Origin: an uncultured Mycoplasmatota bacterium
GTDB taxonomy: Bacteria > Bacillota_I > Bacilli_A > RF39 > UBA660
Length of the DNA stretch: 48,194 nucleotides
Direction of reading: 5' to 3'
Assembly (NCBI GenBank): GCA_900554305.1
Contig: USGV01000010.1
Location: forward strand, 1 to 48,194
Notes under the pieces: model-generated
Told to the model about the DNA's origin: nothing
Databases searched by the model: none
Seen by the model: only the letters and a program-made list of their open reading frames with translations
Part shown: in pieces, positions 9,370-38,831 of the stretch
How positions within the stretch are numbered: the first letter of the stretch is position 1
How the letters are laid out: every line of letters begins with the position of its first letter
Program-made: the position numbers and the translations under genes

Positions 9370-11952
9370 ATGTTAAATGGACTAACGAATAAAGAAGTAA
9401 TCGAACAAAGAAAAGAATATGGTAGTAATGAAATCACTAGAGCAAAACAAAAAGGAATAGGAAAATTATTTTTAGAGTCATTAGGAGATCCAATTATTAA
9501 AATATTACTAATTGCCTTAGGAATAAAAACAATGTTTCTGTTTCATGAATTTGATTGGTTTGAAACATTAGGAATTGTGATTGCTATTATGATAGCTTCT
9601 TTAATTTCAACTATTTCTGAATATGGCAGTGAAGAAGCATTTAAGAAACTCCAGCAAGAATCTTCTAAATTAAAATGCAAAGTAAAAAGAGATGGTAGTG
9701 TAAAAGAAATACCAATGGATGATATCGTAGTAAAAGATTTAGTTTTGCTACAAACCGGAGATAAAATTCCTGCAGATGGTATTATAAGAGAAGGTTCAGT
9801 ACTAGTAGATGAATCAAGTATGAATGGAGAAGCAAAAGAAACAGAAAAAACAATTGGAGACAAACTGTTTAGAGGAACAGTAATATATGCAGAAGAAGCA
9901 TATATGGAAGTAACAGAAGTAGGCAATCAAACCTTCTATGGGAAAATGAGTCAAGAACTTCAAGAGACAGCAGGAGATAGCCCTTTAAAAATTAGATTAA
10001 GAGAATTAGCGAAGTTTATTAGTAAAATAGGATATATAAGTGCGGTATTAGTAGCCCTTTCTTATCTATTTACAGAAATAGTCATAGCCAATTCTTTTAA
10101 TTTGGAACAAATTATGGATACTATAACAAATTTTCCCAAAATGATGAATATATTAATTTATGCATTAACACTAAGTGTAACAATTATAGTAGTAGCGGTT
10201 CCAGAAGGGCTACCCATGATGATTACTTTAGTACTTTCTTCAAACATGAAAAGAATGCTAAAGAGCCATGTTTTAGTAAGAAAAATGGTAGGAATTGAAA
10301 CCGCTGGAAGTCTAAACATTTTGTTTACTGACAAAACGGGAACATTAACAAAAGGAAAATTAAAAGTAATTAGTTTTATAGATGGAAATGGAACAGAATA
10401 TAAAACAGAAAAAGAATTGCTAAAACATAAATTTCTCCACGAACATGTAAAAAATAATTGTTTATATAATAATAGTAGTAATTTTGATGATAATCATGTA
10501 CCTATCGGAGGAAACATTACAGATAGAGCAGTATTAGAATTTATTAAATCTGATAGTAATAAAAAATATAAAAAAATAAAAATCATTCCCTTCGATAGTA
10601 AAAACAAATTTTCTGGAGCAGTAATAGACATAGGTAAAAAAGTTAATTATATCAAAGGCGCTCCCGAAAAGCTTCTACCTTTATGTAAAACTTATATAAA
10701 AGAAAATGGTCAAAAGGAAATAATATCTAATAAAGAGAAAATAGCATACGAAATAAAGAAAAAAACAGAACAAGGAATACGAGCAATTTTACTTGCCTAT
10801 AATGATAATTACATGCCTGAAAGACTAGAAAGACTAACGCTAATTGGCCTCATGTATATAAAGGACGAAGTCAGAGAAGAAGCCAAAGAAGGAATTGAAC
10901 TGGTCCATAAATCCGGTATTCAAACAGTAATGATTACAGGTGATAATAAAGATACAGCGATAAATATAAGCAAAGAAATTGGGTTAATAAGTGATAAGGA
11001 AGATATTATTTTAACGAGTGATGAGCTAAAAGAACTTTCAGATGATAAAGTGAAAGAAATTTTACCTAGATTAAAGGTAGTGGCTAGAAGTATGCCACAG
11101 GATAAGAGTAGATTGGTACGTTTAGCCGAAGAAAAAAATTTAGTAGTCGGAATGACCGGCGATGGAGTAAATGATGCTCCTGCATTAAAAAAAGCTGATG
11201 TTGGCTTTGCGATGGGAAGCGGAACAGAGGTTGCAAAAGAAGCAAGTGACATTGTTATATTAGATAATAATTTTTTATCCATAGCAAATGCTATTTCTTA
11301 TGGTCGTACAATATTTAAAAGTATTAGAAAGTTCATTATTTTTCAGTTAACAATTAATTTATGTGCAGTAAGTTTATCTATCGTTGGGCCGTTTATAGGA
11401 ATAGAAACCCCTGTAACAGTCATTCAAATGCTATGGATTAACATGATTATGGATACTTTAGCAGGCATTGCCTTTTCTTACGAACCACCATTGAAATCAT
11501 ATATGCAAGAAACCCCAAAGGCTAAAAATGAAAAAATAATGAATTCTTATATGTATAGTGAAATAGTTTTTACAGGGATTTATTCGGCGCTACTTTGTCT
11601 TTTCTTTTTGAAAAGTCCAACAATAAGAATGTTATATAGAACTGACCCTTCAAATAAATACATCATGACAGCATTTTTTGCATTATTTATATTTATGGGA
11701 ATATTTAACTGCTTTAATGCTAGAACACCACGATTAAATTTACTAGCAGACTTAAACAAAAATAAAGTATTTATCTTAATTATTTTATTTATTATTCTAG
11801 TACAGCTTTATTTAATATACTATGGTGGAAATTTATTTAGAGCATATGGTTTATCATCAAAAGAATTAATAATTACAATTTTGTTAGCTTCAACCGTAAT
11901 ACCAGTGGATTGGTTACGGAAACTAGCAACGAAACGAAACAAAACAATTTAA
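9370..11952 (+). CDS. P-type Ca2+-transporting ATPase (P2 type)
   Basis: An 860-aa cation pump. It has the P2 membrane motif V-P-E-G-L-P-M-M in M4, the phosphorylation site D-K-T-G-T-L-T with Asp321, and the hinge T-G-D-G-V-N-D-A-P-A-L. About ten membrane segments are present, with an N-terminal cation-ATPase domain (L-T-N-K-E-V-I-E-Q-R-K-E-Y-G-S-N-E). M6 has N-M-I-M-D-T-L-A, the carboxylate-containing pattern of PMCA-like calcium pumps. Bacterial relatives export Ca2+ from the cytoplasm. Its ribosome-binding site lies inside a hairpin (9338-9364), which suggests translational control or read-through from upstream. The FkbM gene follows after 11 bp and is probably cotranscribed. Confidence 0.93.
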   Translation: MLNGLTNKEVIEQRKEYGSNEITRAKQKGIGKLFLESLGDPIIKILLIALGIKTMFLFHEFDWFETLGIVIAIMIASLISTISEYGSEEAFKKLQQESSKLKCKVKRDGSVKEIPMDDIVVKDLVLLQTGDKIPADGIIREGSVLVDESSMNGEAKETEKTIGDKLFRGTVIYAEEAYMEVTEVGNQTFYGKMSQELQETAGDSPLKIRLRELAKFISKIGYISAVLVALSYLFTEIVIANSFNLEQIMDTITNFPKMMNILIYALTLSVTIIVVAVPEGLPMMITLVLSSNMKRMLKSHVLVRKMVGIETAGSLNILFTDKTGTLTKGKLKVISFIDGNGTEYKTEKELLKHKFLHEHVKNNCLYNNSSNFDDNHVPIGGNITDRAVLEFIKSDSNKKYKKIKIIPFDSKNKFSGAVIDIGKKVNYIKGAPEKLLPLCKTYIKENGQKEIISNKEKIAYEIKKKTEQGIRAILLAYNDNYMPERLERLTLIGLMYIKDEVREEAKEGIELVHKSGIQTVMITGDNKDTAINISKEIGLISDKEDIILTSDELKELSDDKVKEILPRLKVVARSMPQDKSRLVRLAEEKNLVVGMTGDGVNDAPALKKADVGFAMGSGTEVAKEASDIVILDNNFLSIANAISYGRTIFKSIRKFIIFQLTINLCAVSLSIVGPFIGIETPVTVIQMLWINMIMDTLAGIAFSYEPPLKSYMQETPKAKNEKIMNSYMYSEIVFTGIYSALLCLFFLKSPTIRMLYRTDPSNKYIMTAFFALFIFMGIFNCFNARTPRLNLLADLNKNKVFILIILFIILVQLYLIYYGGNLFRAYGLSSKELIITILLASTVIPVDWLRKLATKRNKTI

Positions 11953-18961: not shown

Positions 18962-20527
18962 ATGCACATTGGAAAATATATTTTAGATGATAATCAAACT
19001 AATATTGCTAAAGATGATAGTAAATACTTATTAGTAACTGCAGGTGCAGGAAGTGGCAAAACATTAACAATATTAGGCAAAATAAATTACTTAGTAAACC
19101 AAAAAGGGTTAAAAGAAGAGGAATTATTATGCATCTCCTTTACCAAAGCATCAGCAGATAGTCTGAAAGAAAAGATAAAAAAAGATTTAAATTTAAACGT
19201 ACCAACTTATACATTTCATAAATTGTCACTAGAGATAATTAAAAAGTTAAAAGCTTCATATGAGATTGCGGAAGAAGATTTGCTAGAAGATATAATTAAT
19301 GAGTTTTTTTACATGGATATATATAACTCAAAGTATTTAATGAAGTTAGTATGTAAATATTTTAAAAAGAATCTGGCAAATGTAAAACAAGAATATAAAA
19401 CTATAATAGAAGATCAAAAAGAAGAATTAGAAAGTCTAAAAAAAGTATGCAGTACATTTATTAAGTTAATGAAATGTAATAATTATGAGTTAAAGGATTT
19501 CTTAGTTTTTTTATCTAGAATAAAAAGAACCATATTCTATACTACATACAAAAAAGAAAAAGCACTTTTGACAATAATTTTAAATATTTATTTAAAGTAC
19601 AATAGATATTTAACAGAAAATAAAGAAATTGACTTTGATGATATGATTATACTCGCAACGAAACTAGTAAAAGAAGAAAAACTAACATGGCCTATAAAAT
19701 ATATTATTATCGATGAGTATCAAGATACATCACAAATTAGATTTTTACTAATAAAAGAAATGATTAATAAAATTAATGCAAGATTAATGGTAGTAGGAGA
19801 TGACTTTCAATCAATCTATAAATTTACAGGATGTGATGTTTCACTGTTTTTAAACTTTCCAAATTATTTTCCTAATGCTAAAATAAGAAAGTTAGAGAAG
19901 ACTTATCGTAATAGTAATGAATTAATAAAAATAGCTGGAAGATTTATCATGAAAAATAAAAATCAGATAGAAAAGGAATTATCTTCAGATAAACATCTAA
20001 AAAAGCCAATTAAAATTTTAAAGTATATAAATATTAGAAAAATTTTTCTAGAATTAATAAAAGAACTATCGAAAAATAAAGACCAGAAAATATTAATATT
20101 AGGAAGAAATAATAAAGATATTTATTTGTTAATTAGTGAAACTATAAAAATAAATAGTCAAAAAAAGATTATAGTAAAAGGATTTGAATATTTAGACATT
20201 ACATATATGACAGTTCATAAATCAAAAGGGTTAGAGAGTGACAACGTAATTATCATTAATCTTGAAAATAAAACAACCGGATTTCCAAGTAAAATAAAAG
20301 ATGAAAGAATTACTCGCTTAGTAACAAAAACAAAAGATACATATCCTTATAGTGAAGAAAGAAGATTGTTCTATGTTGCGTTAACTAGAACGAAGAACAA
20401 AGTATTTTTATTAGTTCCACAAAAAAGCCCTTCTATTTTTATAGAAGAGCTAGAATATATAATTAATCATTTAGAAAAAGAAACTAAATTTTTTAAATCG
20501 CCAGGAGCACTTAATAAGAAATCATAA
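18962..20527 (+). CDS. UvrD/PcrA-like superfamily 1 helicase, compact
   Basis: A 521-aa SF1A helicase. Walker A is T-A-G-A-G-S-G-K-T (about residues 27-35). Motif Ia follows as C-I-S-F-T-K-A-S-A. Motif II is I-I-D-E-Y-Q-D-T-S, motif III G-D-D-F-Q-S-I-Y, motif IV T-Y-R-N-S, motif V V-H-K-S-K-G-L-E and motif VI Y-V-A-L-T-R-T. At about 520 aa it is shorter than PcrA (about 720), mainly through reduced 1B/2B domains. It should unwind or translocate on single-stranded DNA. The start has only a weak RBS, and the last 61 bases overlap a convergent HAD gene. Confidence 0.88.
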   Translation: MHIGKYILDDNQTNIAKDDSKYLLVTAGAGSGKTLTILGKINYLVNQKGLKEEELLCISFTKASADSLKEKIKKDLNLNVPTYTFHKLSLEIIKKLKASYEIAEEDLLEDIINEFFYMDIYNSKYLMKLVCKYFKKNLANVKQEYKTIIEDQKEELESLKKVCSTFIKLMKCNNYELKDFLVFLSRIKRTIFYTTYKKEKALLTIILNIYLKYNRYLTENKEIDFDDMIILATKLVKEEKLTWPIKYIIIDEYQDTSQIRFLLIKEMINKINARLMVVGDDFQSIYKFTGCDVSLFLNFPNYFPNAKIRKLEKTYRNSNELIKIAGRFIMKNKNQIEKELSSDKHLKKPIKILKYINIRKIFLELIKELSKNKDQKILILGRNNKDIYLLISETIKINSQKKIIVKGFEYLDITYMTVHKSKGLESDNVIIINLENKTTGFPSKIKDERITRLVTKTKDTYPYSEERRLFYVALTRTKNKVFLLVPQKSPSIFIEELEYIINHLEKETKFFKSPGALNKKS

Positions 20528-29418: not shown

Positions 29419-29471
29419 TTCTAAATGGCAGGGGATGAGAGAATCGAACTCCCAACAGTGGTTTTGGAGAC
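29419..29471 (-). other. Left attachment junction: 3' half of chromosomal tRNA-Trp
   Basis: These 53 bp are identical to 38650-38702. On the minus strand they read from the core GTCTCCAAAA through the anticodon 3' stem, T-arm, acceptor strand and encoded CCA, plus 7 bases beyond. The 5' half is missing: at 29472 the sequence changes to the element arm. This is therefore a split tRNA and one end of the integrated element. Confidence 0.92.
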
Positions 29472-29645
29472 GAAGTCCTAATTACCACAGTCCCGTTTCT
29501 AATAAGCTTTCCATGGTAGTTCATGATCTGTTATATAAATTACTCATCTTTATTATACGAAGAAAATTATCTTTACACCAGTAAAATTAAAACTTTTTTT
29601 GATGAATTTGAGTACGAAAAATCATCAAAAAATTTCGGGCTTCGC
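29463..29645. repeat. 183-bp inverted repeat X, left copy
   Basis: This segment, from the core TTTGGAGAC to CTTCGC, is the reverse complement of 36935-37117; I found no mismatch. It contains one attachment arm with CCATGG (29511-29516). Outside it a diverged continuation is visible to about 29742, pairing with 36838-36934 and including GTGTGGGGAAAGCG. The pair brackets the whole cargo region (regulators, restriction-modification, AIPR, kinase-like genes). Confidence 0.93.
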
Positions 29646-29715
29646 TTAAGATAAATAAGACTTTTAGATTCTACTTTTTCTAAAAGTATATAAATAGAAA
29701 GAAAAATCAAAACAA

Positions 29716-29750
29716 AAGAATCGCCAGGGGTGTGGGGAAAGCGATTCTTT
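29716..29750 (-). terminator. Possible terminator after the DUF3892-like gene
   Basis: AAAGAATCGC and GCGATTCTTT pair (10 bp) around a 15-16 nt G-rich loop. On the minus strand a T-rich stretch (TTTTGTTTTGATTTTT) follows. It lies about 40 bp past the stop of the 93-aa gene. The G-rich loop (CAGGGGTGTGGGG) is unusual in this AT-rich region. Confidence 0.5.
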
Positions 29751-29787
29751 GAGTTTAACTATTCTAGAATATAAGAAAAGGACCAGA

Positions 29788-30069
29788 TTAACTAGTAGTT
29801 TTTTCTCTAGGTAAGTTAAGTAAATTATCAAAACCATATCTATCAGGTACTGACTTAACAAACTTTTCGTTATTCGAACTTAGTTGTTTTACTAATTTAG
29901 GATAAGGGTATATATTGACTGCTAAGGAATTAGGATACATAGTCAAATAGTCATAATAATAAGCCTTAGACTTCCAACCAATTCCTGAAACATATATTTC
30001 ATCTATCTCTAATAATTCGTTAGAACTTTCTTGTCCTTTCTTCATTTTTATTTTTTCTACATATTTCAT
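29788..30069 (-). CDS. DUF3892-like small protein
   Basis: 93 aa. The C-terminal segment (K-F-V-K-S-V-P-D-R, then D-N-L-L-N-L-P-R) resembles the characteristic end of DUF3892 proteins, and the middle has I-G-W-K-S-K-A-Y-Y-Y. The function of that family is unknown, though it is common in accessory islands. The start ATG 30069 has GGAGG about eight bases upstream. It lies just 19 bp downstream of a 45-aa Lys-rich ORF and shares its promoter, so the two form an operon. Family assignment is by eye and moderate. Confidence 0.62.
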   Translation of the reverse strand: MKYVEKIKMKKGQESSNELLEIDEIYVSGIGWKSKAYYYDYLTMYPNSLAVNIYPYPKLVKQLSSNNEKFVKSVPDRYGFDNLLNLPREKTTS

Positions 30070-30088
30070 ATAAAATTCCTCCTATATC

Positions 30089-30226
30089 TTATTTTCTTTT
30101 TTTAGGTGCTCTTTGAGATAAGGCACTTGCTGCAACTGATTTTGTTTTACTTGATGTTCTACCATCTTTTAGTAATTTACTAGCTTTTGATGCAACTCTT
30201 GCACTAGTTTTACGTGCTTTTGGCAT
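30089..30226 (-). CDS. Lys/Ser/Ala-rich 45-aa protein
   Basis: ATG 30226 follows AAAGGAGG. The product begins M-P-K-A-R-K-T-S-A-R-V-A-S-K-A-S-K and ends in S-A-L-S-Q-R-A-P-K-K-R-K. It is strongly basic and reads like a histone-tail or nucleoid-binding peptide. Very similar short M-P-K...S-A-L-S-Q proteins occur next to DUF3892-like genes in accessory islands of other bacteria, as I recall it. Strong RBS, own promoter and operon position support a real gene. Function is unknown; DNA or RNA binding is inferred from charge only. Confidence 0.7.
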   Translation of the reverse strand: MPKARKTSARVASKASKLLKDGRTSSKTKSVAASALSQRAPKKRK

Positions 30227-30250
30227 GTTTTTCCTCCTTTACTTTAGACA

Positions 30251-30306
30251 TCAATTGACAAATGCGCACCATTTAATATAAAATATAGGTGACGAAAGTC
30301 AATTGA
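30251..30306 (-). promoter_or_regulatory. Promoter of the small-protein operon with flanking inverted repeat
   Basis: On the minus strand -35 TTGACT (30297-30302) and -10 TATATT (30275-30280) are 16 bp apart. TCAATTGAC (30251-30259) and GTCAATTGA (30298-30306) form a perfect 9-bp inverted repeat bracketing the promoter, one copy overlapping the -35. This is a candidate operator pair for the XRE regulator nearby. The adjacent 30307-30361 holds no gene. Confidence 0.6.
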
Positions 30307-30361
30307 AGCCAAACCTCTATGCTGTTTGGTTCGCAATAAATAAAACTGCTTGGCCGTGGTT

Positions 30362-30862
30362 TTATTTTTTTTCGCTCAATTGAATACTTGCAACTTCTTT
30401 TGAAACACCATATTTTTCTGAAATTATATCAATGTCATCATTATCTGATATACCATTTAGTGGACAAAGAAACTCTCTTGCGAATGTATTTGCTTGCCAC
30501 TCTGGATCACAATAAACTGGAATCTTTTCATCAGAACGAGCCATTGCAATATTGTCAGAATGTAAGAAAATATGCCCTATTTCGTGTGAAACGGTAAATC
30601 TATCTCTGCCTATGCCATTTATAGCTCTTTCATATACATCTTCACGTAATTTAATTGTTTTATCAATAGGGTTATATTCAGCGTATTTGTCCAACATCTC
30701 CTTTTTTTCAATAATTTCGAAAGATATGTCGAGCGCAGGGCAAATAACCATTTCTAACAAACGAATTATATCAATTTTCTCATTTTTATTTACTTGAAGT
30801 ATTTCGCGTATCTGATTTGCTATTTGTCTAATGAGTACTTTACTTCTCGGATGTGCTTTCAT
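30362..30862 (-). CDS. ImmA/IrrE-type metallopeptidase
   Basis: 166 aa. The zinc motif H-E-I-G-H lies in F-T-V-S-H-E-I-G-H-I-F-L-H at about residue 95, preceded by a helical N-terminus; W-Q-A-N-T-F-A-R-E-F-L-C-P supplies the third-ligand region. ImmA proteases of mobile elements cleave their partner XRE repressor after DNA damage or another signal and so activate the element. Its start overlaps the end of the XRE gene by 23 bp, so the pair is translated together. It probably controls the small-protein operon, and perhaps the integrase. Confidence 0.9.
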   Translation of the reverse strand: MKAHPRSKVLIRQIANQIREILQVNKNEKIDIIRLLEMVICPALDISFEIIEKKEMLDKYAEYNPIDKTIKLREDVYERAINGIGRDRFTVSHEIGHIFLHSDNIAMARSDEKIPVYCDPEWQANTFAREFLCPLNGISDNDDIDIISEKYGVSKEVASIQLSEKK

Positions 30863-31229
30863 TCTTTTCTCCTTCCATTATTTTAATTATCTTGTTAAAC
30901 TTTTCAGGAGTTATGCTATTTTCTTGGCATTTCCTAGCAAAGGATATAAGCATCTGCTTAGTTTTGTAATCATCAGACTCAATAACATCATTAAATTGTA
31001 AATCCTGACTCTTAATGATAGAAAATAATTCATCTTGTTTATCTTTTGGAAGACAATACAGGTTTGATATTTTCTCATACCAATTATCAGGTATTTTTCT
31101 TTTTCCATTTTCAACCGCAGATAAATATGATGATGATACACCTAGAGCATCAGCCATATCTTTTAATATTTGATTATTATCAAGTCTAATCTTTCTACAA
31201 AAAATTGCAAATTCACTTAATCTTTCCAT
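30840..31229 (-). CDS. XRE-family repressor (ImmR-like)
   Basis: About 129 aa from ATG 31229, which has GGAGAG eight bases upstream; the longer frame from 31280 runs through the promoter. The helix-turn-helix is near the N-terminus (I-L-K-D-M-A-D-A-L-G-V-S-S-S-Y-L-S-A-V-E-N-G-K-R), followed by a dimerisation tail with N-S-I-T-P-E-K-F. It is coupled to the ImmA gene. The arrangement equals the ImmR/ImmA switch of ICEBs1-like elements. Palindromes at its own promoter and at the small-protein promoter are candidate targets. Confidence 0.9.
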   Translation of the reverse strand: MERLSEFAIFCRKIRLDNNQILKDMADALGVSSSYLSAVENGKRKIPDNWYEKISNLYCLPKDKQDELFSIIKSQDLQFNDVIESDDYKTKQMLISFARKCQENSITPEKFNKIIKIMEGEKNESTSEK

Positions 31230-31251
31230 ATTTCTCTCTCCTAACACCAAA

Positions 31252-31313
31252 AGTATAGCATAACATTTTATTTTTGTCAACTTGCTTGTGGATTAATTTT
31301 ACAATTTTGTAAA
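31252..31313 (-). promoter_or_regulatory. Promoter of XRE-ImmA with upstream palindrome
   Basis: On the minus strand -35 TTGACA (31275-31280) and -10 TATACT (31252-31257) are 17 bp apart. A 16-bp palindrome TTTACAATTTTGTAAA lies at 31298-31313, 17 bp upstream of the -35, and may be a regulator site. Confidence 0.7.
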
Positions 31314-31337
31314 TAAAATCAAAAAAAGGAAAAATCA

Positions 31338-32576
31338 TCAGTTTTCATTTTCGATGATTCTTTCTATTTCTTTTCCAATTCTCTCAATAACTCCAACAAC
31401 AAGAGCATTTCCCATCATAAAATATCTTTTCTTATCACTCATACCAGTATTTGTCCAATCATCTGGGAATCCATTAATTCGTTCGCATTCTCTTGGTGTT
31501 AATAAACGAAGTTTTTTTGTTTTAAAGTCTTCTATTACATGAGTTGTTCTACTAATTCCACTTTCACTAGTAAGCATAGTTCTAGCAGGAGCATCCAAAT
31601 TATCTGGAAAAGGCATAGAACCCTCACAGTAATAATATGGTTCTCCATTGGGTTTGACTCTAGGAATCTTTTTGCTTCCCTTTAGAAAAGCGAACTTTTC
31701 TATTTGTTTATCGTTTAAGAAGTATTTTTCATCAACTGGATTTTCTTCACGAATATTTCTTAAAGGATAAATAAGATTATAATCAGACTTAACTTTTACA
31801 GTATAAATACCACCATTAGTCATAACACCAGCATTATAAAACTGACACTTAAAATTATCACTAACATCTTTTAAATCCTTGTATTCAGAAATACTGGACT
31901 CACTAATAGCTTGGTACTCAGATTTAATTGGGAATTGTTGTACAAATAACCCTTTTTCAAAAATAACATCTCTATCTTTAACTTTTTGCATTTCTTTATA
32001 ATAATTTGTAGATTTATGATATGCTAAGATATAAGTTCGTCTACGTTTTTGTGGAAGGCCATATTCTCCTGCGTTAATAACTCTCCATTGTACATCATAC
32101 CCGTTTTCATAAAAACTTCTTAGCATAATTCCAAAATCCCTACCACGTTGTTTAGCGGGAGATAATAAAAGTCTATCAACATTTTCTAATAACACAAAAG
32201 GAGGTTGTTTGATTGCTAGAGTCTGTTCAATAGCCCACCATAAAACACCTTTTTTACCTTCAATACCTTTACTATTAGATAATGTTTGCGCTACAGAATA
32301 GTCTTGGCAAGGGAATCCACCAACCAATAAAGTATGGTCTGGGATATCATGCTTATCAACTTCAAAGATATCAACATTAGATACAGAATCTTCACCAAAT
32401 CTTTTAGCATAACATTCATAAGCTTCCTGACTTTTAGTAGCAGGTTCCCATTGGTTAGCCCATAAAAACTTCCAATTTCCATTTTCTACAACTTTATCAT
32501 CCTTAAGTTCAACATGATTTAATCCACATCTAAACCCGCCAACTCCGGCAAATAATTCTATTGCTGTTTTTTCCAT
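31338..32576 (-). CDS. DNA (cytosine-5) methyltransferase, probable GATC-specific
   Basis: About 412 aa from ATG 32576, which has GGGGAGG upstream. Motif I is E-L-F-A-G-V-G-G (7-14), the catalytic motif G-G-F-P-C-Q-D has Cys90, motif VI is E-N-V at 131-133, and R-R-R-T-Y-I-L supplies motif VIII. The target-recognition region lies at about 205-330, and a C-terminal motif X contains the final N-A-L-V. It methylates its host's restriction sites. The divergent neighbour is a Sau3AI/MutH-like nuclease, whose family cuts GATC, and Sau3AI itself is partnered with a C5 methylase, so GAT-m5C is the most likely product. Its promoters contain GATC in both -35 boxes. Confidence 0.92.
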   Translation of the reverse strand: MEKTAIELFAGVGGFRCGLNHVELKDDKVVENGNWKFLWANQWEPATKSQEAYECYAKRFGEDSVSNVDIFEVDKHDIPDHTLLVGGFPCQDYSVAQTLSNSKGIEGKKGVLWWAIEQTLAIKQPPFVLLENVDRLLLSPAKQRGRDFGIMLRSFYENGYDVQWRVINAGEYGLPQKRRRTYILAYHKSTNYYKEMQKVKDRDVIFEKGLFVQQFPIKSEYQAISESSISEYKDLKDVSDNFKCQFYNAGVMTNGGIYTVKVKSDYNLIYPLRNIREENPVDEKYFLNDKQIEKFAFLKGSKKIPRVKPNGEPYYYCEGSMPFPDNLDAPARTMLTSESGISRTTHVIEDFKTKKLRLLTPRECERINGFPDDWTNTGMSDKKRYFMMGNALVVGVIERIGKEIERIIENEN

Positions 32577-32613
32577 ATATAAAACCTCCCCGTTGTTATA
32601 TCGTTTCAATTAT

Positions 32614-32692
32614 ATTATAATAAAAGCAAGTGGAAAGATCAACCTTTTCTAACAATATTATTATAAAATATTTAACAAAAAAGATCAACCTT
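32614..32692 (-). promoter_or_regulatory. Tandem methyltransferase promoters with GATC inside both -35 boxes
   Basis: Proximal promoter: -35 TTGATC (32637-32642), 17 bp, TATAAT (32614-32619). Distal promoter: -35 TTGATC (32683-32688), 17 bp, TATAAT (32660-32665). The two are exactly 46 bp apart and share the 13-mer AAAGATCAACCTT (32634-32646 and 32680-32692). On the plus strand the nuclease promoter TTAGAC (32691-32696), 16 bp, TAAAAT (32713-32718) overlaps the end of the distal copy. A third GATC lies at 32733-32736 in the nuclease leader. Confidence 0.82.
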
Positions 32693-32750
32693 AGACCATT
32701 ACTATTTTAAAATAAAATGAATAAAAAAACAAGATCGAAAGGAGCTTTTT

Positions 32751-34136
32751 ATGAAAAAAGGTAGACTATACGGTAGAGAAGAGATAGAAGTAATTGCAAA
32801 ATCAGCAATAGGGAAATCACTTAATGATATTCTAAATGAAGAAGTAGTTACAATAGAGGATAAAGAAGCAAACAAAGGAGGACTAGGCCAACTAATTGAA
32901 AAATATCTATTTGGAATGGATAATAATAGTGATTCAGAACCTGATTTTATGCCTGCTGGAATTGAACTAAAAGTTACTCCATATAAAAAGATAAAAGGAA
33001 ATCAACTTTCCGCAAAAGAAAGATTAGTACTAAATATTATTGATTTTGACGCAGAATATAAAAATGATTTTAAAAATAGTCACTTTTGGTATAAAAACAA
33101 TAAAATACAACTTCTATGGTATTTATGGGAAGCAGGAAAAGATAAAAAGGATTACAAAATAACTCATGAAAGATTACTAGAGTTAGCACAAAGTGAAGAT
33201 TTAAAGCAGATAGAAGAAGACTGGAATAAAATCATTAATAAAATTAAGAAGGGACAAGCACACGAGATATCTGAAGCGGACACTATGTATTTAGGTGCTT
33301 GTACCAAAGGAGCAAATGCTAAAGCATTACGTGACCAACCTTTCTCATCTATAAAAGCAAAACAAAGAGCTTTTTGTTTTAAGACTTCATACATGACTCA
33401 GCTAGTAAGAAAATACATCGGGGATTATACTGATGTAGAAAAAGTTCTTAAAAATGAAGAAGAGACATTTGATAGTTTTATAAATAAAGTTATTAATAAA
33501 TATAAAGGAAAGACACAAAAAGAATTAATGGAAGAATTAAATATCGACTCAAAAGCCAAAAATATCCTTAGTATGATAATAAGCAGAATGTTTAATGTTA
33601 AATCAAAATTAAAAGAAACCGAAGAATTTCAAAAAGCAAATATTATTCCTAAAACAATCAGAGTGGAAGAAAATGGAAATATTATTGAATCAATGTCTTT
33701 CCCATACTTTAGCTTTGAAAAGGTTTTAAAAACTGATTTTGAAGATTCAGATTTAAGAGAAGAATTAGAAACCACTAAATATATGTTTTTTATATTTAAG
33801 AAAGAAAATGAAGAGTATGTATTTAAAGGAATAAAATTATGGAACATGCCTGAATCAACCATAGATTCAAAAGTAAAAGATATGTATGACAAAACAAGAG
33901 AAGTGATTAAAACTGGAAATATTGTAAATCACATAGATGAAAGAGGAAGAAGAATAACTAATTTTCCAGGTATGAGTGATAATGGAGTATGCCATGTAAG
34001 GCCTCATGGTAGAAACGCTAACGACACGATACCATTACCAGTAAAAGATAAAGTAACGGGTGCAACTAAATACACTAAACAATGCTTTTGGCTTAATAAC
34101 AATTATTTAAGAAATATATTAAAAAATTATATATAA
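32751..34136 (+). CDS. Sau3AI/MutH-like restriction endonuclease
   Basis: 461 aa. The MutH/Sau3AI catalytic signature is clear: Glu50 in G-L-G-Q-L-I-E-K-Y, then Asp65 in P-D-F, six residues, and E-L-K at 72-74. This D-x6-E-x-K spacing matches the metal-binding site of MutH and Sau3AI. Sau3AI is about 490 aa with two related halves; here the second half (about 250-461) is expected to be the allosteric pseudo-catalytic domain. Predicted cleavage is at GATC. AAAGGAGC precedes the ATG. The divergent methyltransferase protects the host. Together they form a type II R-M system, the island's core defence. Confidence 0.88.
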   Translation: MKKGRLYGREEIEVIAKSAIGKSLNDILNEEVVTIEDKEANKGGLGQLIEKYLFGMDNNSDSEPDFMPAGIELKVTPYKKIKGNQLSAKERLVLNIIDFDAEYKNDFKNSHFWYKNNKIQLLWYLWEAGKDKKDYKITHERLLELAQSEDLKQIEEDWNKIINKIKKGQAHEISEADTMYLGACTKGANAKALRDQPFSSIKAKQRAFCFKTSYMTQLVRKYIGDYTDVEKVLKNEEETFDSFINKVINKYKGKTQKELMEELNIDSKAKNILSMIISRMFNVKSKLKETEEFQKANIIPKTIRVEENGNIIESMSFPYFSFEKVLKTDFEDSDLREELETTKYMFFIFKKENEEYVFKGIKLWNMPESTIDSKVKDMYDKTREVIKTGNIVNHIDERGRRITNFPGMSDNGVCHVRPHGRNANDTIPLPVKDKVTGATKYTKQCFWLNNNYLRNILKNYI

Positions 34137-34185
34137 TTAAATAACAAAATGATATAATGAACATAAAGTAGTTGAGGTGAAATAT

Positions 34186-35961
34186 ATGGATTTTAGAGAT
34201 CAAATTAAAGAGGATATAGAGGAATATCAAGAAAAATATCCAAATATAAAAAATATTAATAAAGATGAATGGGCTTTTAATTTTTGGATTCTTGACAAAT
34301 TTTTTCAAATTGACGAAGAGTTGATTGAGTCTAATATTGTTGATTATAAGGATTTAGGAATTGATTGTTTTGTATATTATGAAGATACAAAGGAGTTTTA
34401 TTTAATACAAAATAAGTATTATTCGGATTCAACGCAATTAACACGAAGCTATGTAGAAGACGATTTTTTAATAAGACCATACAACGCATTAAAAGAAGGT
34501 ACATATCGCAAAAACTCGGATCTTCAAAGAGCATTTACGAAATATAAAAATGATTCAGATTTTTACGTATATTTGCAAATTTATGTAACTAATGACTTAA
34601 TAAGTGATGATGTCGTTGAAAGCATACGTAAGTTTAATCAAAATCATGCCAGCAATCATATTAAGGCTGAATTATATATGCTAAAAGATATACAAAATAA
34701 ATATTATGATAATCCAATTGAAAATAAAATTAATTTTGAATACACAATAAATACAATAAATAATGGTACAATATTAAAGGTGGATTCTGAGAACTATCCT
34801 TTTGATTTGCCATTAAAAGCAAGATACATTTTAACTCCTGTAGTAACAATATATAGGATGTATAGAGCCGCAAAAGAAAAACAATATCCAATATTTGATG
34901 CAAATATAAGAGAATATTTGGGAAATAAAGGGATAAATAAAAATATGTATAATACATTAATGAGCCAAGAAGACAGAAGTAACTTTTTTTATTACAATAA
35001 TGGAATCACTGTAGTATGTAATAATATGAGCACTCCTAAAACAACACCCAATGGTCTAAAATTTTCGGTTTCAAATCCACAGATTGTTAATGGATGCCAA
35101 ACAGTAAGTACAATTTATGAAGCACTTGATACATATGATCCTTCTAGTTTGGAAAAGGAATTTAAAAACACATTTGTTTTGATAAAATTATTACAAATTG
35201 ATGATTCTATTGAACAAGAAGTATTGTATAAAAGTATTGTAAAATATAATAACTCACAGAATGCCATTGACGAAAAAACTTTTGTAGCTAATCATTCAGT
35301 ATTTTTGAGATTACAAAAAGAGTTTGAGAAGAAAGGATTCTTATTGCTTATAAAACAAAGCGATAAAAATACATTTTTAAATAAATATAAAACACCAACA
35401 GAATTGTTAAATCGGAATTCAGAATTATTAGAGAAATATGGTATAGAATTAAAAAAAGTTGCAGATTTTACTATAAAGTTGGATAAACTACTTCAAATTA
35501 TTTTAGCGTTTGTAAATGGTGGAACGCAAGCATATCAGAAAAAAAGCAATCTTTTAAAAGTAGGAACTGATCAATATAATACTGTTATGAATTTTATAAA
35601 AGATAATAATGTTACAATCAATGCAATTTTAAATTTATATTTATTATATTTAAAAATGAATTTGCAAAAAAAAGATTCTGAATATGGAACATTTCCTATT
35701 GCTTATTATGGAATTGATTGCTTCAATAGATTTAACTGTGAAGGAGATTACACTAAAATATTGAATAATTTAAATAGCAAAGAAAATATTGAAAAATTAT
35801 ATAATATTTATTATAGTGCGACGTTACAATATACAATAGGATATACAAGGGAAAAAGGAACAAGTTATAATAATATGATTAAACAAAATATAGAGTATGA
35901 TAGACTGTTAGATTGCTATAAGTATGCAAAAGCGATGAGCGAAATACCTAAATCTTTCTGA
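34186..35961 (+). CDS. AIPR-family protein (abortive-infection type)
   Basis: 591 aa from ATG 34186, with GAGGTG (34174-34179) upstream; an in-frame GTG at 34177 is inside that RBS. The AIPR hallmark region is present: N-I-R-E-Y-L-G, later F-F-Y-Y-N-N-G-I-T-V-V-C and P-Q-I-V-N-G-C-Q-T-V-S-T. The N-terminus (about 1-120) has D-L-G-I-D-C-F and F-Y-L-I-Q-N-K-Y-Y, resembling a PD-(D/E)xK-like nuclease core with Asp and Gln-x-Lys. AIPR proteins were first linked to phage abortive infection in lactococci and often sit beside R-M genes, as here. The trigger is unknown. Confidence 0.85.
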   Translation: MDFRDQIKEDIEEYQEKYPNIKNINKDEWAFNFWILDKFFQIDEELIESNIVDYKDLGIDCFVYYEDTKEFYLIQNKYYSDSTQLTRSYVEDDFLIRPYNALKEGTYRKNSDLQRAFTKYKNDSDFYVYLQIYVTNDLISDDVVESIRKFNQNHASNHIKAELYMLKDIQNKYYDNPIENKINFEYTINTINNGTILKVDSENYPFDLPLKARYILTPVVTIYRMYRAAKEKQYPIFDANIREYLGNKGINKNMYNTLMSQEDRSNFFYYNNGITVVCNNMSTPKTTPNGLKFSVSNPQIVNGCQTVSTIYEALDTYDPSSLEKEFKNTFVLIKLLQIDDSIEQEVLYKSIVKYNNSQNAIDEKTFVANHSVFLRLQKEFEKKGFLLLIKQSDKNTFLNKYKTPTELLNRNSELLEKYGIELKKVADFTIKLDKLLQIILAFVNGGTQAYQKKSNLLKVGTDQYNTVMNFIKDNNVTINAILNLYLLYLKMNLQKKDSEYGTFPIAYYGIDCFNRFNCEGDYTKILNNLNSKENIEKLYNIYYSATLQYTIGYTREKGTSYNNMIKQNIEYDRLLDCYKYAKAMSEIPKSF

Positions 35962-36286
35962 TAATATAATAATAAAAGTACTATAAAAGGGTCACTTTTA
36001 ACTTTAGATAATAGAAAATGAGAAAATTAAACATCTACAATAATTTTAAGTTAATACACAATTAATTTATCGTATAATTAGTTCACCGTGATATTATTAT
36101 AATCTATTATAAAATGGATTATTTCTATGAAGTTTAATATTACTGAGAAGGTTAAAATTCATAAATCATTAATATCCTGTGTACCTTGCTCCAAGCGTTA
36201 TAAAAAGTTATCCTATGCAAATAGTCCCATTCTATTAGAAGACGGATAATGAGTTATATATAAATAAAATATATGGAGTTGATAAA
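35962..36286. other. 325-bp intergenic stretch without a convincing gene
   Basis: AT-rich sequence between the AIPR and kinase-like genes. A 40-codon ORF from ATG 36127 to 36249 (M-K-F-N-I-T-E-K-V-K...) lacks a good RBS and has no recognisable domain, so I do not call it a gene. TATAAT-like boxes near 36090-36110 may belong to a promoter for the downstream gene. No hairpin terminator with a clear T-run is seen after AIPR. Confidence 0.5.
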
Positions 36287-36826
36287 ATGATTATATGGAT
36301 AGATGGAGTACGAGGTGTTGGAAAAACAAAAGTGTGTGAAGAATTAATGAATGCAAAGATTAATTATAATTTCGAATTGTTAAATTCTGATCAATATTAT
36401 ATAAATATGATTAAGAGAAATGCTTTCTTGGCTTTAAACACGGGAGCTTTGCCACAAAATAATAAAAATTTTATTATAGAATTTAGGAATGTAATTAAAA
36501 GCAAGATAAAAAATGAGGAAAAAAATTTAATTATAGATATGGCTTTAACAGAGAAGGAATGTAAAGATGGTTTGATTGATTCTCTAAAAAAAGACGGTAT
36601 AAACATTTTGCATATTATATTAACGGCCTCAAAAGAAAATTTAATTGACCGAATTAGAAATGATTCTAATCGTGATAAAGAGGATGCATTAAATTTATTA
36701 GAAAATAATTTAAAATTTTTAGAAACGGAATTTAGTCAAGATGAATGGATTGAAACTGATAATAAATGTATTTCTGATATCGTAAAAGAGATAATAATTA
36801 TAGAAAAACGCAAACACAAATATTAA
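36287..36826 (+). CDS. P-loop kinase-like protein (AAA_33/TmrB type)
   Basis: 179 aa. The N-terminus I-I-W-I-D-G-V-R-G-V-G-K-T-K contains a Walker A motif (G-V-R-G-V-G-K-T at residues 7-14), and the body has L-I-I-D-M-A-L-T as a Walker B candidate. L-I-D-R-I-R-N-D-S-N-R resembles the lid arginines of nucleotide or small-molecule kinases such as TmrB and chloramphenicol phosphotransferase-like proteins. It could phosphorylate a nucleotide or antibiotic, or act in defence with AIPR. Substrate unknown. GGAG precedes the ATG. It is the last cargo gene before the right inverted repeat. Confidence 0.7.
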   Translation: MIIWIDGVRGVGKTKVCEELMNAKINYNFELLNSDQYYINMIKRNAFLALNTGALPQNNKNFIIEFRNVIKSKIKNEEKNLIIDMALTEKECKDGLIDSLKKDGINILHIILTASKENLIDRIRNDSNRDKEDALNLLENNLKFLETEFSQDEWIETDNKCISDIVKEIIIIEKRKHKY

Positions 36827-36934
36827 AATAAAACAACCGCTTTCCCCACACGATAAAAAACACCTTTTGATTTTTCTTTCTATTTATCTATACTTTTAAA
36901 AAGAAGAATCTACAAAAGTCCCAACCGATGACGG

Positions 36935-37117
36935 GCGAAGCCCGAAATTTTTTGATGATTTTTCGTACTCAAATTCATCAAAAAAAGTTTTAATTTTACT
37001 GGTGTAAAGATAATTTTCTTCGTATAATAAAGATGAGTAATTTATATAACAGATCATGAACTACCATGGAAAGCTTATTAGAAACGGGACTGTGGTAATT
37101 AGGACTTCGTCTCCAAA
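36935..37117. repeat. 183-bp inverted repeat X, right copy
   Basis: Reverse complement of 29463-29645 with no mismatch found. It ends at the core GTCTCCAAA (37109-37117). A diverged extension of about 100 bp continues leftwards to 36838 and contains CGCTTTCCCCACAC, matching 29729-29742. The rest of 36827-37270 is this repeat, the attP-like site and the half tRNA, with no gene. Confidence 0.93.
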
Positions 37118-37220
37118 TTACTTGGTTACCATGGAATTACAAATAGCTAGTTCTATATTTTATAAGCTATTAATCTCATACAGGGGATTAGTTAAATGGT
37201 ATAATAATGGTCTCCAAAAC
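37057..37220 (+). other. Internal attP-like site followed by a 5' half tRNA-Trp
   Basis: Arm X with CCATGG (37073-37078), core site TAATTAGGAC-TTC-GTCTCCAAATTA (37096-37120), then arm Y with a second CCATGG (37129-37134) lie uninterrupted. This is the sequence expected in an excised circular element. Directly after it is a 5' half of tRNA-Trp (37182-37216) ending in a second core (37210-37218), where the sequence turns into unrelated DNA (TTATGCAGGGTG). Core-flanking arms TAATTAGG and CCAAATTA are near inverted repeats, as expected for tyrosine-integrase core sites. The whole site faces opposite to the outer junctions. Confidence 0.85.
37109..37220. repeat. 112-bp inverted repeat Y plus 5' half-tRNA, left copy
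   Basis: From core GTCTCCAAA through arm Y and the 5' tRNA half to the second core, this is the reverse complement of 38692-38803 with two mismatches (ATTACAAAT versus ATTGCAAAT, and AAGCTATT versus AAGCGATT). The pair brackets the integrase and SymE-like genes. Confidence 0.92.
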
Positions 37221-37263
37221 TTATGCAGGGTGTTCAATATAGACAAGCGGTGTCATAGCCGAA

Positions 37264-37298
37264 AAAAGACTCAAATCTTTTTTTGATTTGGGTCTTTT
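37264..37298 (-). terminator. Terminator overlapping the SymE-like gene end
   Basis: AAAAGACTCAAATC and GATTTGGGTCTTTT form a 14-bp stem (one T-G pair) around a T7 loop. On the minus strand it is followed by TTTTTTC. The stem begins inside the last codons of the SymE-like gene. Confidence 0.8.
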
Positions 37299-37447
37299 AC
37301 TTTGGTTATAATCAACTTATCTTTATACTGTTTTATTTCGACAGTATCATGAAAATGAAAGCCAAGTTTTTGTAACCATTTCCCTTTAAGTAGAAGATAA
37401 GGAGTATTATGAAAGTCTTCATATACGAGTATCTTTCTATTTTTCAT
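37271..37447 (-). CDS. SymE-like toxin-family protein
   Basis: 58 aa from ATG 37447, with GGTGAG six bases upstream. The core P-Y-L-L-L-K-G-K-W-L-Q-K-L-G-F followed by V-E-I-K-Q-Y-K-D-K-L-I-I-T matches the SymE family, an AbrB-fold group whose E. coli member condenses the nucleoid or acts as an SOS-induced type I toxin under antisense RNA control. An in-frame ATG at 37471 lies deeper inside the integrase gene. The gene overlaps the integrase stop by 11 nt (ATGAAAAATAG), so translation is coupled. No SymR-like antisense RNA can be proven, but a strong inverted repeat upstream of the integrase is a candidate regulatory RNA. Confidence 0.78.
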   Translation of the reverse strand: MKNRKILVYEDFHNTPYLLLKGKWLQKLGFHFHDTVEIKQYKDKLIITKVKDPNQKKI

Positions 37448-38471
37448 GATACTCACCAGCTTGTCTATCATTTTCTATATTAGAGATTATAGAATGTTTA
37501 GCGTGTTTAGTTTTAAGATCTTTTGGAGACATATCTACATAAATCTTGGTAGTTTCAATATTAGTATGCCCCAAAAGATCACGGAGTGAAAAAGGGTCAC
37601 CTCCATTAATAACAAAGTGAGTCGCAAAAGTATGACGGAACTTATGTGGATTCATACGAAATCCAGGACCAAATATTTTCTTCGCCTTACGATTAAGTAA
37701 TCCATAAACCATTTCTGTATTTAAAGGTGAATCCAAAATAGGTTCGTTATACTGGCGATGAAACTTTACAAATAGTGGTCCTTTTTCTGCTCCTTTTAAA
37801 ACTTCACGTCTATAAACATTGTATATTCTCTCTGTTTCTTTCGAATAGTACACGGTGCGAAAAGTATTCGTCTTAGTAGCATATATGTAGATACTCCTTT
37901 CTTTTGTATTAATATCTTCCAGTTTGATACGCACAAGTTCGCTATTTCTAATACCAGTATCTAAAAGCACCATAACAATTAATAGGTTACGAAGTTCGGA
38001 CTTGTAGCGTAAATCAAACGAAGTAAGGAGTTTTCGCACCTGTTCTACCGTAAAGTAATCGATTTTTTCTTTTCTAACTTTTTTAGGCTTAACATTGCGA
38101 GCAGGATTGGCAATCAAATAACCATCTCTTTCTAAATAGTTAAAGAAAGCTCTTAGTGCTCTTGCGTGACAATTAAAAGTGTTAACCTTATTCTTGGAAT
38201 ACTTACTTTCAATATAATATTCTAGTTCAGAAGAAGTAAGGCTCTCTAAAGCTTGAACTTTCTTAATCTGCACTAAGAACTTTCGAAATGCATTAAGTTT
38301 GTCCTTATAAAAATGTTTGGTCTCACTTGCCAATCCTCGCACTTCCATATTCCTAAAAAAGTATGCAACGGCATCATCATAAGTGAGATTACTTTGCGGT
38401 GGTTGTTTTGTTTCTCCTTGTTTAAACGTTCTAAAAAAATCTGCAAGTTCATTGATAGTTTGTTCTGTCAT
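37437..38471 (-). CDS. Tyrosine recombinase (element integrase, XerC/D-like)
   Basis: 344 aa from ATG 38471, with GGGAGG upstream; the frame's earlier ATG at 38516 has none. The N-terminal SAM-like core-binding domain covers about residues 25-120 (A-V-A-Y-F-F-R-N-M-E). The catalytic domain has Arg in D-T-G-I-R-N-S-E-L (about 175), the box H-K-F-R-H-T-F-A-T-H (about 283), L-L-G-H, and the nucleophile Tyr in T-T-K-I-Y-V-D (about 317). It lacks an obvious AP2-type arm-binding domain, as in Xer-like integrases. It should recombine the GTCTCCAAA cores in the tRNA-Trp anticodon loop. No excisionase gene is evident. Confidence 0.93.
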   Translation of the reverse strand: MTEQTINELADFFRTFKQGETKQPPQSNLTYDDAVAYFFRNMEVRGLASETKHFYKDKLNAFRKFLVQIKKVQALESLTSSELEYYIESKYSKNKVNTFNCHARALRAFFNYLERDGYLIANPARNVKPKKVRKEKIDYFTVEQVRKLLTSFDLRYKSELRNLLIVMVLLDTGIRNSELVRIKLEDINTKERSIYIYATKTNTFRTVYYSKETERIYNVYRREVLKGAEKGPLFVKFHRQYNEPILDSPLNTEMVYGLLNRKAKKIFGPGFRMNPHKFRHTFATHFVINGGDPFSLRDLLGHTNIETTKIYVDMSPKDLKTKHAKHSIISNIENDRQAGEYHEK

Positions 38472-38547
38472 ATAAATCCTCCCTATAATTAAAATATTTT
38501 GTAATTTATATAACAAAACAACCGCGAAAGAAACTAATATAGAAAAT

Positions 38548-38601
38548 CTTTTAAACTAGACAAAAGGACTACCCAGGGTAACAATAGGTCTAGTTTAAAA
38601 G
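38548..38601. repeat. Long inverted repeat upstream of the integrase
   Basis: CTTTTAAACTAGAC (38548-38561) and GTCTAGTTTAAAAG (38588-38601) are perfect 14-bp complements. The 26-nt loop contains a second small stem TACCC-AG-GGTA (38571-38581). There is no T-run, so it is not a terminator. It may be a structured leader or small RNA, or a recombinase or regulator site in the integrase promoter region. Confidence 0.7.
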
Positions 38602-38619
38602 TCATCACCTGCATATCAA

Positions 38620-38644
38620 CAAAAAAAGCAGCACCACTGCTGCT
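38620..38644 (-). terminator. Terminator behind the intact tRNA-Trp
   Basis: AGCAGCA-CCAC-TGCTGCT followed on the minus strand by TTTTTTT. It differs from the native tRNA terminator at 29388-29415, showing that the intact tRNA ends in element DNA. Confidence 0.85.
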
Positions 38645-38656
38645 TATAATTCTAAA

Positions 38657-38730
38657 TGGCAGGGGATGAGAGAATCGAACTCCCAACAGTGGTTTTGGAG
38701 ACCATTATTATACCATTTAACTAATCCCCT
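38657..38730 (-). tRNA. tRNA-Trp (anticodon CCA), intact, at the element's right end
   Basis: The minus strand folds as a 74-nt tRNA: acceptor AGGGGAT with ATCCCCT, encoded CCA, T-arm GGGAG-TTCGATT-CTCTC, anticodon arm TGGT-CTCCAAA-ACCA with CCA at 38698-38696. This is the only complete tRNA-Trp in the window. Its 3' flank is element DNA with its own terminator. Immediately upstream, arm Y contains TTGCAA and TATAAG about 18 bp apart, which could serve as a local promoter. Further upstream lies the orphan 5' half with the strong chromosomal promoter. Confidence 0.95.
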
Positions 38731-38803
38731 GTATGAGATTAATCGCTTATAAAATATAGAACTAGCTATTTGCAATTCCATGGTAACCAAGTAATTTGGA
38801 GAC
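38692..38803. repeat. 112-bp inverted repeat Y plus 5' half-tRNA, right copy
   Basis: Reverse complement of 37109-37220 with two mismatches. It comprises the core in the intact tRNA, the 5' tRNA half, arm Y with CCATGG (38778-38783) and the outer core at 38795-38803. Confidence 0.92.
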
Positions 38804-38831
38804 CATTATTATACCATTTAACTAATCCCCT
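38795..38831 (-). pseudogene. Orphan 5' half of chromosomal tRNA-Trp
   Basis: The minus strand reads AGGGGATTAGTTAAATGG and on to the core GTCTCCAAA, then switches into arm Y instead of the 3' half. It is the original promoter-proximal half, separated from its 3' half (29426-29471) by the island. Because the consensus promoter upstream still drives it, a transcript would contain this half, arm Y and the complete tRNA in order. Confidence 0.9.

Follow-up and report, generated by a model that had tools for sequence, protein, structure and literature searches.

The window analyzed here is a 48,194-nucleotide stretch of DNA from an uncultured Mycoplasmatota bacterium (contig USGV01000010.1), and it carries a 9.3-kb segment that is probably an integrative defence island inserted at the anticodon loop of a tRNA-Trp gene, equipped with a replacement tRNA and an inverted copy of its attachment site (attP). 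Read on the minus strand, the segment starts with a tRNA-Trp promoter-like sequence, the displaced 5' half of the tRNA, a core at 38795, and a 61-bp P arm; these are followed by a complete tRNA-Trp whose loop is the core at 38694, a tyrosine integrase gene, a SymE-like open reading frame (ORF), and an inverted, decayed tRNA with the core at 37210. Next come an inverted P arm, the inverted core at 37109, an inverted P' arm, and the cargo, and the far end is formed by a P' arm, the core at 29463, and the displaced 3' half of the tRNA (Table 1). The promoter-like sequence, TTGACA-17-TATAAT, was read by eye about 41-70 bp beyond the displaced 5' half, and similar flanks were present at two other loci (L065 and L067; loci and genomes are designated by L and G numbers).

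A sequence-only reading of the window had proposed a tRNA-Trp island with a tyrosine integrase and nested inverted attachment-type repeats, and this outline was supported. On recomputation, both inverted repeats had the lengths, positions, and mismatch counts that had been given (183 bp at 29463-29645/36935-37117 without mismatches, and 112 bp at 37109-37220/38692-38803 with two), and all five GTCTCCAAA cores lay where they had been placed and in the same orientations (29463, 38694, and 38795 on the minus strand; 37109 and 37210 on the plus strand). Across the 9.4-kb region, exact inverted matches reached 183 nt, compared with at most 18 nt in 20 mononucleotide shuffles. A sixth GTCTCCAAA, on the minus strand at 37522-37530 within the integrase gene, recurs there in L001, L002, L007, L009, and L021 and is probably a coding coincidence.

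ARAGORN detected one intact tRNA-Trp in the window, in agreement with Rfam, and neither tool reported a tRNA at the core at 37210. The sequence common to the elements and the tRNA at the junctions was CTCCAAA, the 7-nt anticodon loop. The junction at 37109 has the order P'-core-P, which was also found in L021. As recombination of P'-core-P with an intact tRNA-Trp yields exactly the junctions at 38795 and 29463, the outermost cores were assigned as attL and attR; judged by its junctions, the core at 37109 is a further intact, inverted attP-like site. A search for the tRNA-Trp 3' half that allowed 3 mismatches in 24 gave one or two matches in each of 12 element-bearing genomes, all at the element tRNA or its outer fragment, apart from a third match in G001 that was the overlapping end of a partner contig. 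The target is apparently the host's own tRNA-Trp gene, present as a single copy in the hosts.

Other insertions splitting the same tRNA-Trp loop were seen in G006 (L075, 1351-1614), G028 (L057, 1501-1815), and contig C78 of G021 (L077, 1-294), each carrying a divergent tRNA-Trp some 190-250 bp in from the left end. This tRNA was complete by ARAGORN in L075 and L057, and a contig end cuts the copy in L077. About 44 kb separates the host 5' half from the next 3' half in G006.

The same scaffold was found with different cargo in loci of related gut metagenome-assembled genomes (MAGs). A scan of the genome collection retrieved 22 loci, one of which (L022, 28%) was unrelated; the source MAGs bear titles such as uncultured Bacilli, Clostridia, Clostridium, and Erysipelotrichaceae, and their genomes are 0.8-2.0 Mb in size. 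The sequence-only reading had suggested comparing the core and repeat layout among relatives, and the internal inverted site does recur in them. Integrase matches at 1e-60 were found in 6 of 385 sampled genomes from the order of G008 and in 5 of 291 from the family of G004; within the genus of G001 (16 genomes), matches at 1e-40 were found in G001, G002, G009, and G019, and only a fragment in G021. The element is likely present in G403 and G407, whose contigs stop 52 and 49 bp inside the region upstream of the integrase, after the match has passed a native-terminator-like stretch. Both cargo ends were visible in 11 elements (the window, L001, L003-L008, L012, L015, and L017), all of which had a boundary motif (CGCTTTCCCCACACC-like, with at most 2 substitutions) inverted at the two ends. 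L006 had one extra internal copy of the motif, and L015 had an internal, partial distal-arm piece that lacks the motif. An integron-like cassette array was rejected because the motif stands at the two cargo ends only, apart from the extra copy in L006.

The inner region was examined in 18 loci, 17 of which had a recognisable inner tRNA half; L016 was dropped from the count, as its half at site X (the decayed tRNA copy) was missing and its site Y (the inverted attP-like core) was ambiguous. L002, L013, L014, L019, and L020 show the inner region incompletely; L002 diverges at X, and its Y lies beyond the contig. Site Y kept CTCCAAA in all 17 loci and site X in nine, a difference with a probability of 0.0013 if the loci were independent, but they are related. 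In a clade of five loci (L005, L007, L008, L012, and L017), the site X loop is lost, and the inner site has the form TCTCCAAA-TCC(or TAC)-TTTGGAGACCATTA, which is nearly symmetric, with a reversed tRNA half as its right side. In L015, the tRNA-Trp has a variant anticodon stem and the inner decayed copy resembles it in this variant (9757-9792 and 11244-11289), which would suit an origin from the resident tRNA or conversion with it.

Clean empty sites were found in four genomes of the G001 genus (G280, G364, G405, and G406; loci L067, L068, L080, and L081), each with a flank that aligns with that of the window and with an intact tRNA-Trp. For G401, G402, G404, and G147, the search gave no tRNA 5' half. 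Contig ends at the tRNA were left out as evidence of polymorphism because a tRNA sequence shared by co-sampled species can break assembly. The island has the marks of a tRNA island: an integrase gene at one end, an intact tRNA with a direct-orientation fragment at the far end, and an empty site in relatives.

Scarred sites were found as well. In the window, L002, L003, and L004, the host 5' half is separated from the complete tRNA by a 101-bp block (P arm, 5' half, and core), and a 101-bp scar was present in G257 (L065) and G127, which had no integrase match and had an intact tRNA-Trp behind the scar. The G257 block has one mismatch to each of the two window copies, and the G257 flanks are 95-98% identical to those of the window in the closest stretches and 77-82% elsewhere; the G127 scar has a different P arm. 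In a pattern search of 385 genomes of the order, the 5' half was matched in 74, with the paired spacing lacking an integrase in G127 and G257, the paired spacing with an integrase in G003, and a block at a contig end in G195. G001 (L023) has two blocks in tandem that differ in P type: the outer is of the window type (95%), and the one nearest the tRNA matches the P arm of G001's own inner site at 60 of 60 bases. L004 has a further 3' tRNA fragment at 19098. In the integrase module, the window shared about 96% identity with L001, L002, L009, and L019, whereas its chromosomal flank was 74-78% identical to those of L002, L019, and L023, which points to horizontal movement.

The arms of ten complete elements were split at a conserved GGCGAAGC hairpin and compared (L017 was left out because of its truncated outer arm). 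The distal part (93-103 nt) grouped by position and was 61-81% alike within an element; the two distal parts of L015 were nearest each other (81%), yet the nearest arm from another element had the same position for each. In contrast, the proximal part (167-200 nt) grouped by element, with identities within the element of 99% in the window, 100% in L001, L003, L004, and L005, 94% in L007, 91% in L008, 96% in L012, 98% in L015, and 56% in L006. Between sisters, the proximal parts were 70% (window/L001) and 74% (L003/L004) identical, while their distal parts were 92-97% alike; L005/L012 and L007/L008 are close sisters, with equally high proximal values across elements. The idea that the near-identity of the repeats points to exchange between copies was supported. 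A patch around the inner core of the window (37024-37150; about 85 bp on the P' side and 33 bp on the P side) could not be aligned with L001, most of the scaffold around it was >90% identical, and both arms carry the same patch type.

Mismatched arms coincided with broken integrases. The integrase of L006 is interrupted, falling into three ORFs with a TGA and a TAA inside the matching stretch. The L009 integrase is split, and this element has an outer arm of type A, a partly deleted inner arm of type B, and a changed outer loop. The integrases of L005 and L012 were counted as intact because the reported stop is the natural end of a 346-aa ORF. The arms were mismatched in both elements with a broken integrase and matched in all nine others (one-sided p 0.018, a value that ignores kinship among the elements and is open to MAG errors).

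The cargo differs between elements and often looks like defence. A selection of twenty proteins from relatives was scanned: both Pfam and PADLOC were used for ten, and Pfam by itself for the other ten (among them the SymE-like ORF); many cargo genes lay outside this selection. The matches were CD-NTase/SMODS in L001, PDC-S06-like in L003, AbiLi/AriA in L005 (with a 91% identical protein in L017), Abi_2 in L007, a type II endonuclease in L008, AbiD/Abi_2 in L012, PIN_12 in L015, and GmrSD in L018. Matches that were weak or below the cut-off were HEPN in L007 and L015, PDC-M34B in L015, and NPHP3_N in L016. One protein each in L001, L006, and L021 had only DUF4352/DUF5067-type matches, and no Pfam match was found for two proteins in L003 and one each in L004, L006, and L015. 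In the window, the defence cargo was as the sequence-only reading had described it (restriction-modification, AIPR, and kinase-like genes), with IrrE and XRE proteins in addition. A homologue (78% nt) of the window restriction-modification genes lies just outside the outer element end in L012 (13735-16269).

Table 1. Features of the tRNA-Trp island in the window, with the basis of assignment.
Feature	Position	Strand	Basis
Displaced 5' half of host tRNA-Trp	38804..38831	-	
attL core (host tRNA 5' half - core - P arm)	38795..38803	-	sequence junctions
P arm, 61 bp, left end	38734..38794	-	
Intact replacement tRNA-Trp, island-borne; core 38694-38702 spans the anticodon loop	38657..38730	-	ARAGORN, Rfam
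Tyrosine integrase ORF, likely ATG at 38471	37437..38516	-	PF00589 2.6e-29, PF02899 3e-6; XerC/XerD/XerA-like structures
SymE-like ORF, overlaps integrase end	37271..37471	-	PF08845 3.8e-8 in the L001 homologue scanned
Site X: inverted decayed tRNA-Trp copy; perfect 5' half, core 37210-37218, degenerate 3' half	37183..37260	+	
Inverted P arm	37118..37178	+	
Site Y: intact inverted attP-like core (P'-core-P)	37109..37117	+	same junction in L021
Inner P' arm, identical to outer copy	36935..37108	+	
Inner-type distal arm, begins with cargo-boundary motif CGCTTTCCCCACAC	36838..36934	+	
AAA kinase-like cargo gene	36287..36826	+	
AIPR / AbiU-like cargo gene	34177..35961	+	
MutH/Sau3AI-type restriction endonuclease	32751..34136	+	PF02976 3.9e-28; REase_II 4.3e-103
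5mC DNA methyltransferase	31338..32609	-	PF00145; MTase_II 8.3e-165
XRE-type regulator	30840..31280	-	
IrrE/ImmA-type peptidase	30362..30862	-	PF06114
Small cargo ORF, DUF3892 below curated cut-off	29788..30069	-	
Outer-type distal arm; boundary motif 29729-29743	29646..29743	-	
Outer P' arm	29472..29645	-	
attR core (P' arm - core - host tRNA 3' half)	29463..29471	-	
Displaced 3' half of host tRNA-Trp	29426..29462	-	

A 99%-identity protein cluster holds 492 sequences, and an integrase clade was found at 54-61% identity. Carriage by a phage or plasmid was rejected: scans of the viral collection found no relative, and plasmid and phage records gave only integrases of <60% identity. A conserved non-coding RNA in the P' arm was also rejected, as the RNAalifold consensus was about -0.35 kcal/mol with no useful covariation term, the single-sequence z-scores of eight arms ranged from +1.0 to -2.0 (mononucleotide shuffles), and the only Rfam match was the tRNA. 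A candidate P'-arm promoter fits the consensus poorly in the window, at 8 of 12 bases, and matches 11 of 12 in L005, L012, and L015.

The layout, its recurrence in relatives, the empty and scarred sites, the matching of the arms, and the diversity of the cargo are seen directly in the sequences, and the scheme that follows is inferred. We propose that the integrase crosses over in the CTCCAAA loop of the host tRNA-Trp gene, where insertion of P'-core-P would give rise to attL (host 5' half-core-P, at 38795) and attR (P'-core-host 3' half, at 29463). The split gene would be replaced by the complete tRNA-Trp inside the left end, which is probably read from the host promoter through a leader longer by 101 bp. 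The excised circle would carry two opposed attP sites that part the integrase module from the cargo. Recombination between the loop of the replacement tRNA and attR would result in loss of the element, leaving a functional tRNA-Trp behind a 101-bp scar. The cargo may be swapped within the conserved arm boundaries, most simply by homologous recombination. The inner site is likeliest a working attP kept with the element, and its main rival is a relic kept by gene conversion. A more elaborate version, in which the circle has two chambers and the integrase switches isomers or amplifies the island at replication and drives arm conversion, seems doubtful.

Several observations weigh against this scheme. 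The left P block was missing in eleven relatives (L005, L007, L008, L009, L010, L011, L012, L013, L014, L015, and L019), in which the host 5' half is directly joined to the tRNA; a P-type attL is thus not universal, and either it must have been lost there or a different junction (P'-core-3' half) must serve. Nor does every genome of the order have just one tRNA-Trp, as G117 has two, and MAGs are incomplete. No circle was seen, and recombination at the inner site is hypothetical.

The inner copy could instead be a relic of two head-to-head insertions or of an aberrant inversion, with gene conversion matching the arms and the site having no present role. We hold this as a tentative alternative: the second tRNA copy (X) is decayed, with its loop lost in 8 of 17 loci, arm matching ends where homology ends, and remnants accumulate at the tRNA, such as the additional 3' fragment of L004 and the two blocks of L023. 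Against a relic speak the exact 7-nt overlap, which Y has kept in all 17 loci despite varying flanks, and the coincidence of mismatched arms with broken integrases in L006 and L009. Assembly error at the repeats, which the sequence-only reading had named as the main alternative, is highly improbable and is refuted for the layout. The contigs of several relatives do end in the region, but separate assemblies gave the same layout with different arm sequences, and the L021 contig spans the inner junction; the copy number of the 101-bp block is the part still correctable.

The sequence-only reading had further proposed a possible invertible defence cassette, with the integrase flipping the cargo, its own gene, or both between opposed cores; such flipping would change expression. 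Opposed identical cores and a recombinase were indeed found. In addition, two cargo genes shared by L003 and L004, F25 (96% aa) and F09 (77% aa), are in opposite orientation, as is F09 between L004 and L010, which would suit such flipping. However, a second orientation of the segments was not found in the assemblies, and we consider stable inversion improbable, although transient flipping, or isomers that assembly missed, may occur. Inversion at the cores would swap the distal ends, and the distal end types kept their side in 10 of 10 complete elements (two-sided 0.002 if sides were random and independent; weak in L015). The integrase module likewise had the same orientation in 10 of 10 loci (the window, L002, L005, L008, L011, L012, L013, L014, L019, and L073, the last with an integrase fragment), although these loci are kin to one another and an assembly represents just the major form. 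This count required chromosome aligned with the right flank of the window and an integrase coding sequence on one contig; L079 and L082 were left out, as their contigs end in the region upstream of the integrase and have no integrase coding sequence. The other shared cargo was in the same orientation (L005/L017, L005/L012/L021, L008/L017, L005/L015, and L003/L010). In L003 (11670-14994) and L004 (12339-15201), the two shared genes are opposite relative to the integrase while the end sequences are unmoved, so the cores were not the crossover points, and an inversion inside the boundary motifs would fit. A natural cassette exchange at the cores, with the cargo and both P' arms swapped as a unit between inverted attachment sites in the manner of recombinase-mediated cassette exchange in the laboratory, could account for unrelated cargo between elements with about 96% identical integrase modules and for arms that match within an element. 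It was rejected as very unlikely, as the breakpoints are in the wrong place: between the window and L001, the breakpoint is off the core, the core-adjacent P arm differs too, and the variable patch is separated from the cargo by about 97 nt of distal arm that are 97% identical. L003/L004 also regain high identity between the patch and the cargo, and L005/L012 and L007/L008 have no such patch.

The proposed island resembles those found by the Islander method in its tyrosine integrase, its insertion in a tRNA gene, its restored tRNA, and the displaced direct-orientation fragment at its far end (PMC4383910). That report states that anticodon-centred sites account for 2083 of 3919 islands, that islands normally restore the tRNA, and that candidates with opposite-orientation fragments are filtered out (PMC4383910). 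Unlike these, the window island has its complete tRNA behind a separate P arm and includes an inner inverted tRNA half with an attP-like site. Tycheposons, too, carry cargo and a tyrosine recombinase and sit at tRNA genes, but they are not known to have an opposed internal attP copy and paired arms. PsrA-type invertible loci are linked to hsdS. According to one report, they combine a tyrosine recombinase with inverted sites (PMC7096588). The island similarly has a tyrosine recombinase and inverted sites near restriction genes, whereas its sites are tRNA attachment sites and no reversed module was found among its relatives. In the FLP system of the yeast 2-micron plasmid, a circle is halved by opposed recombination sites. 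The putative excised circle of the island would be similar, whereas no replication family was matched among the eight island proteins scanned. A literature search of open-licence papers retrieved nothing matching this layout.

The window island defines a family of defence islands of very small size, found in gut MAGs whose titles name Bacilli and relatives, which share one scaffold and change their cargo, apparently by exchange between elements. These islands replace an apparently single-copy tRNA-Trp and can leave behind a 101-bp scar that is readable in the sequence. Methods of island detection that discard fragments in opposite orientation, as Islander does, could miss such layouts. Why an integrated element keeps a complete attachment site is a question raised by the retention of the opposed attP-like site and by the matched arms. 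If the integrase did use a functional inner attP to switch isomers or amplify the island, this would be a new route of persistence and spread for a minimal defence island that lacks its own replication and transfer genes.

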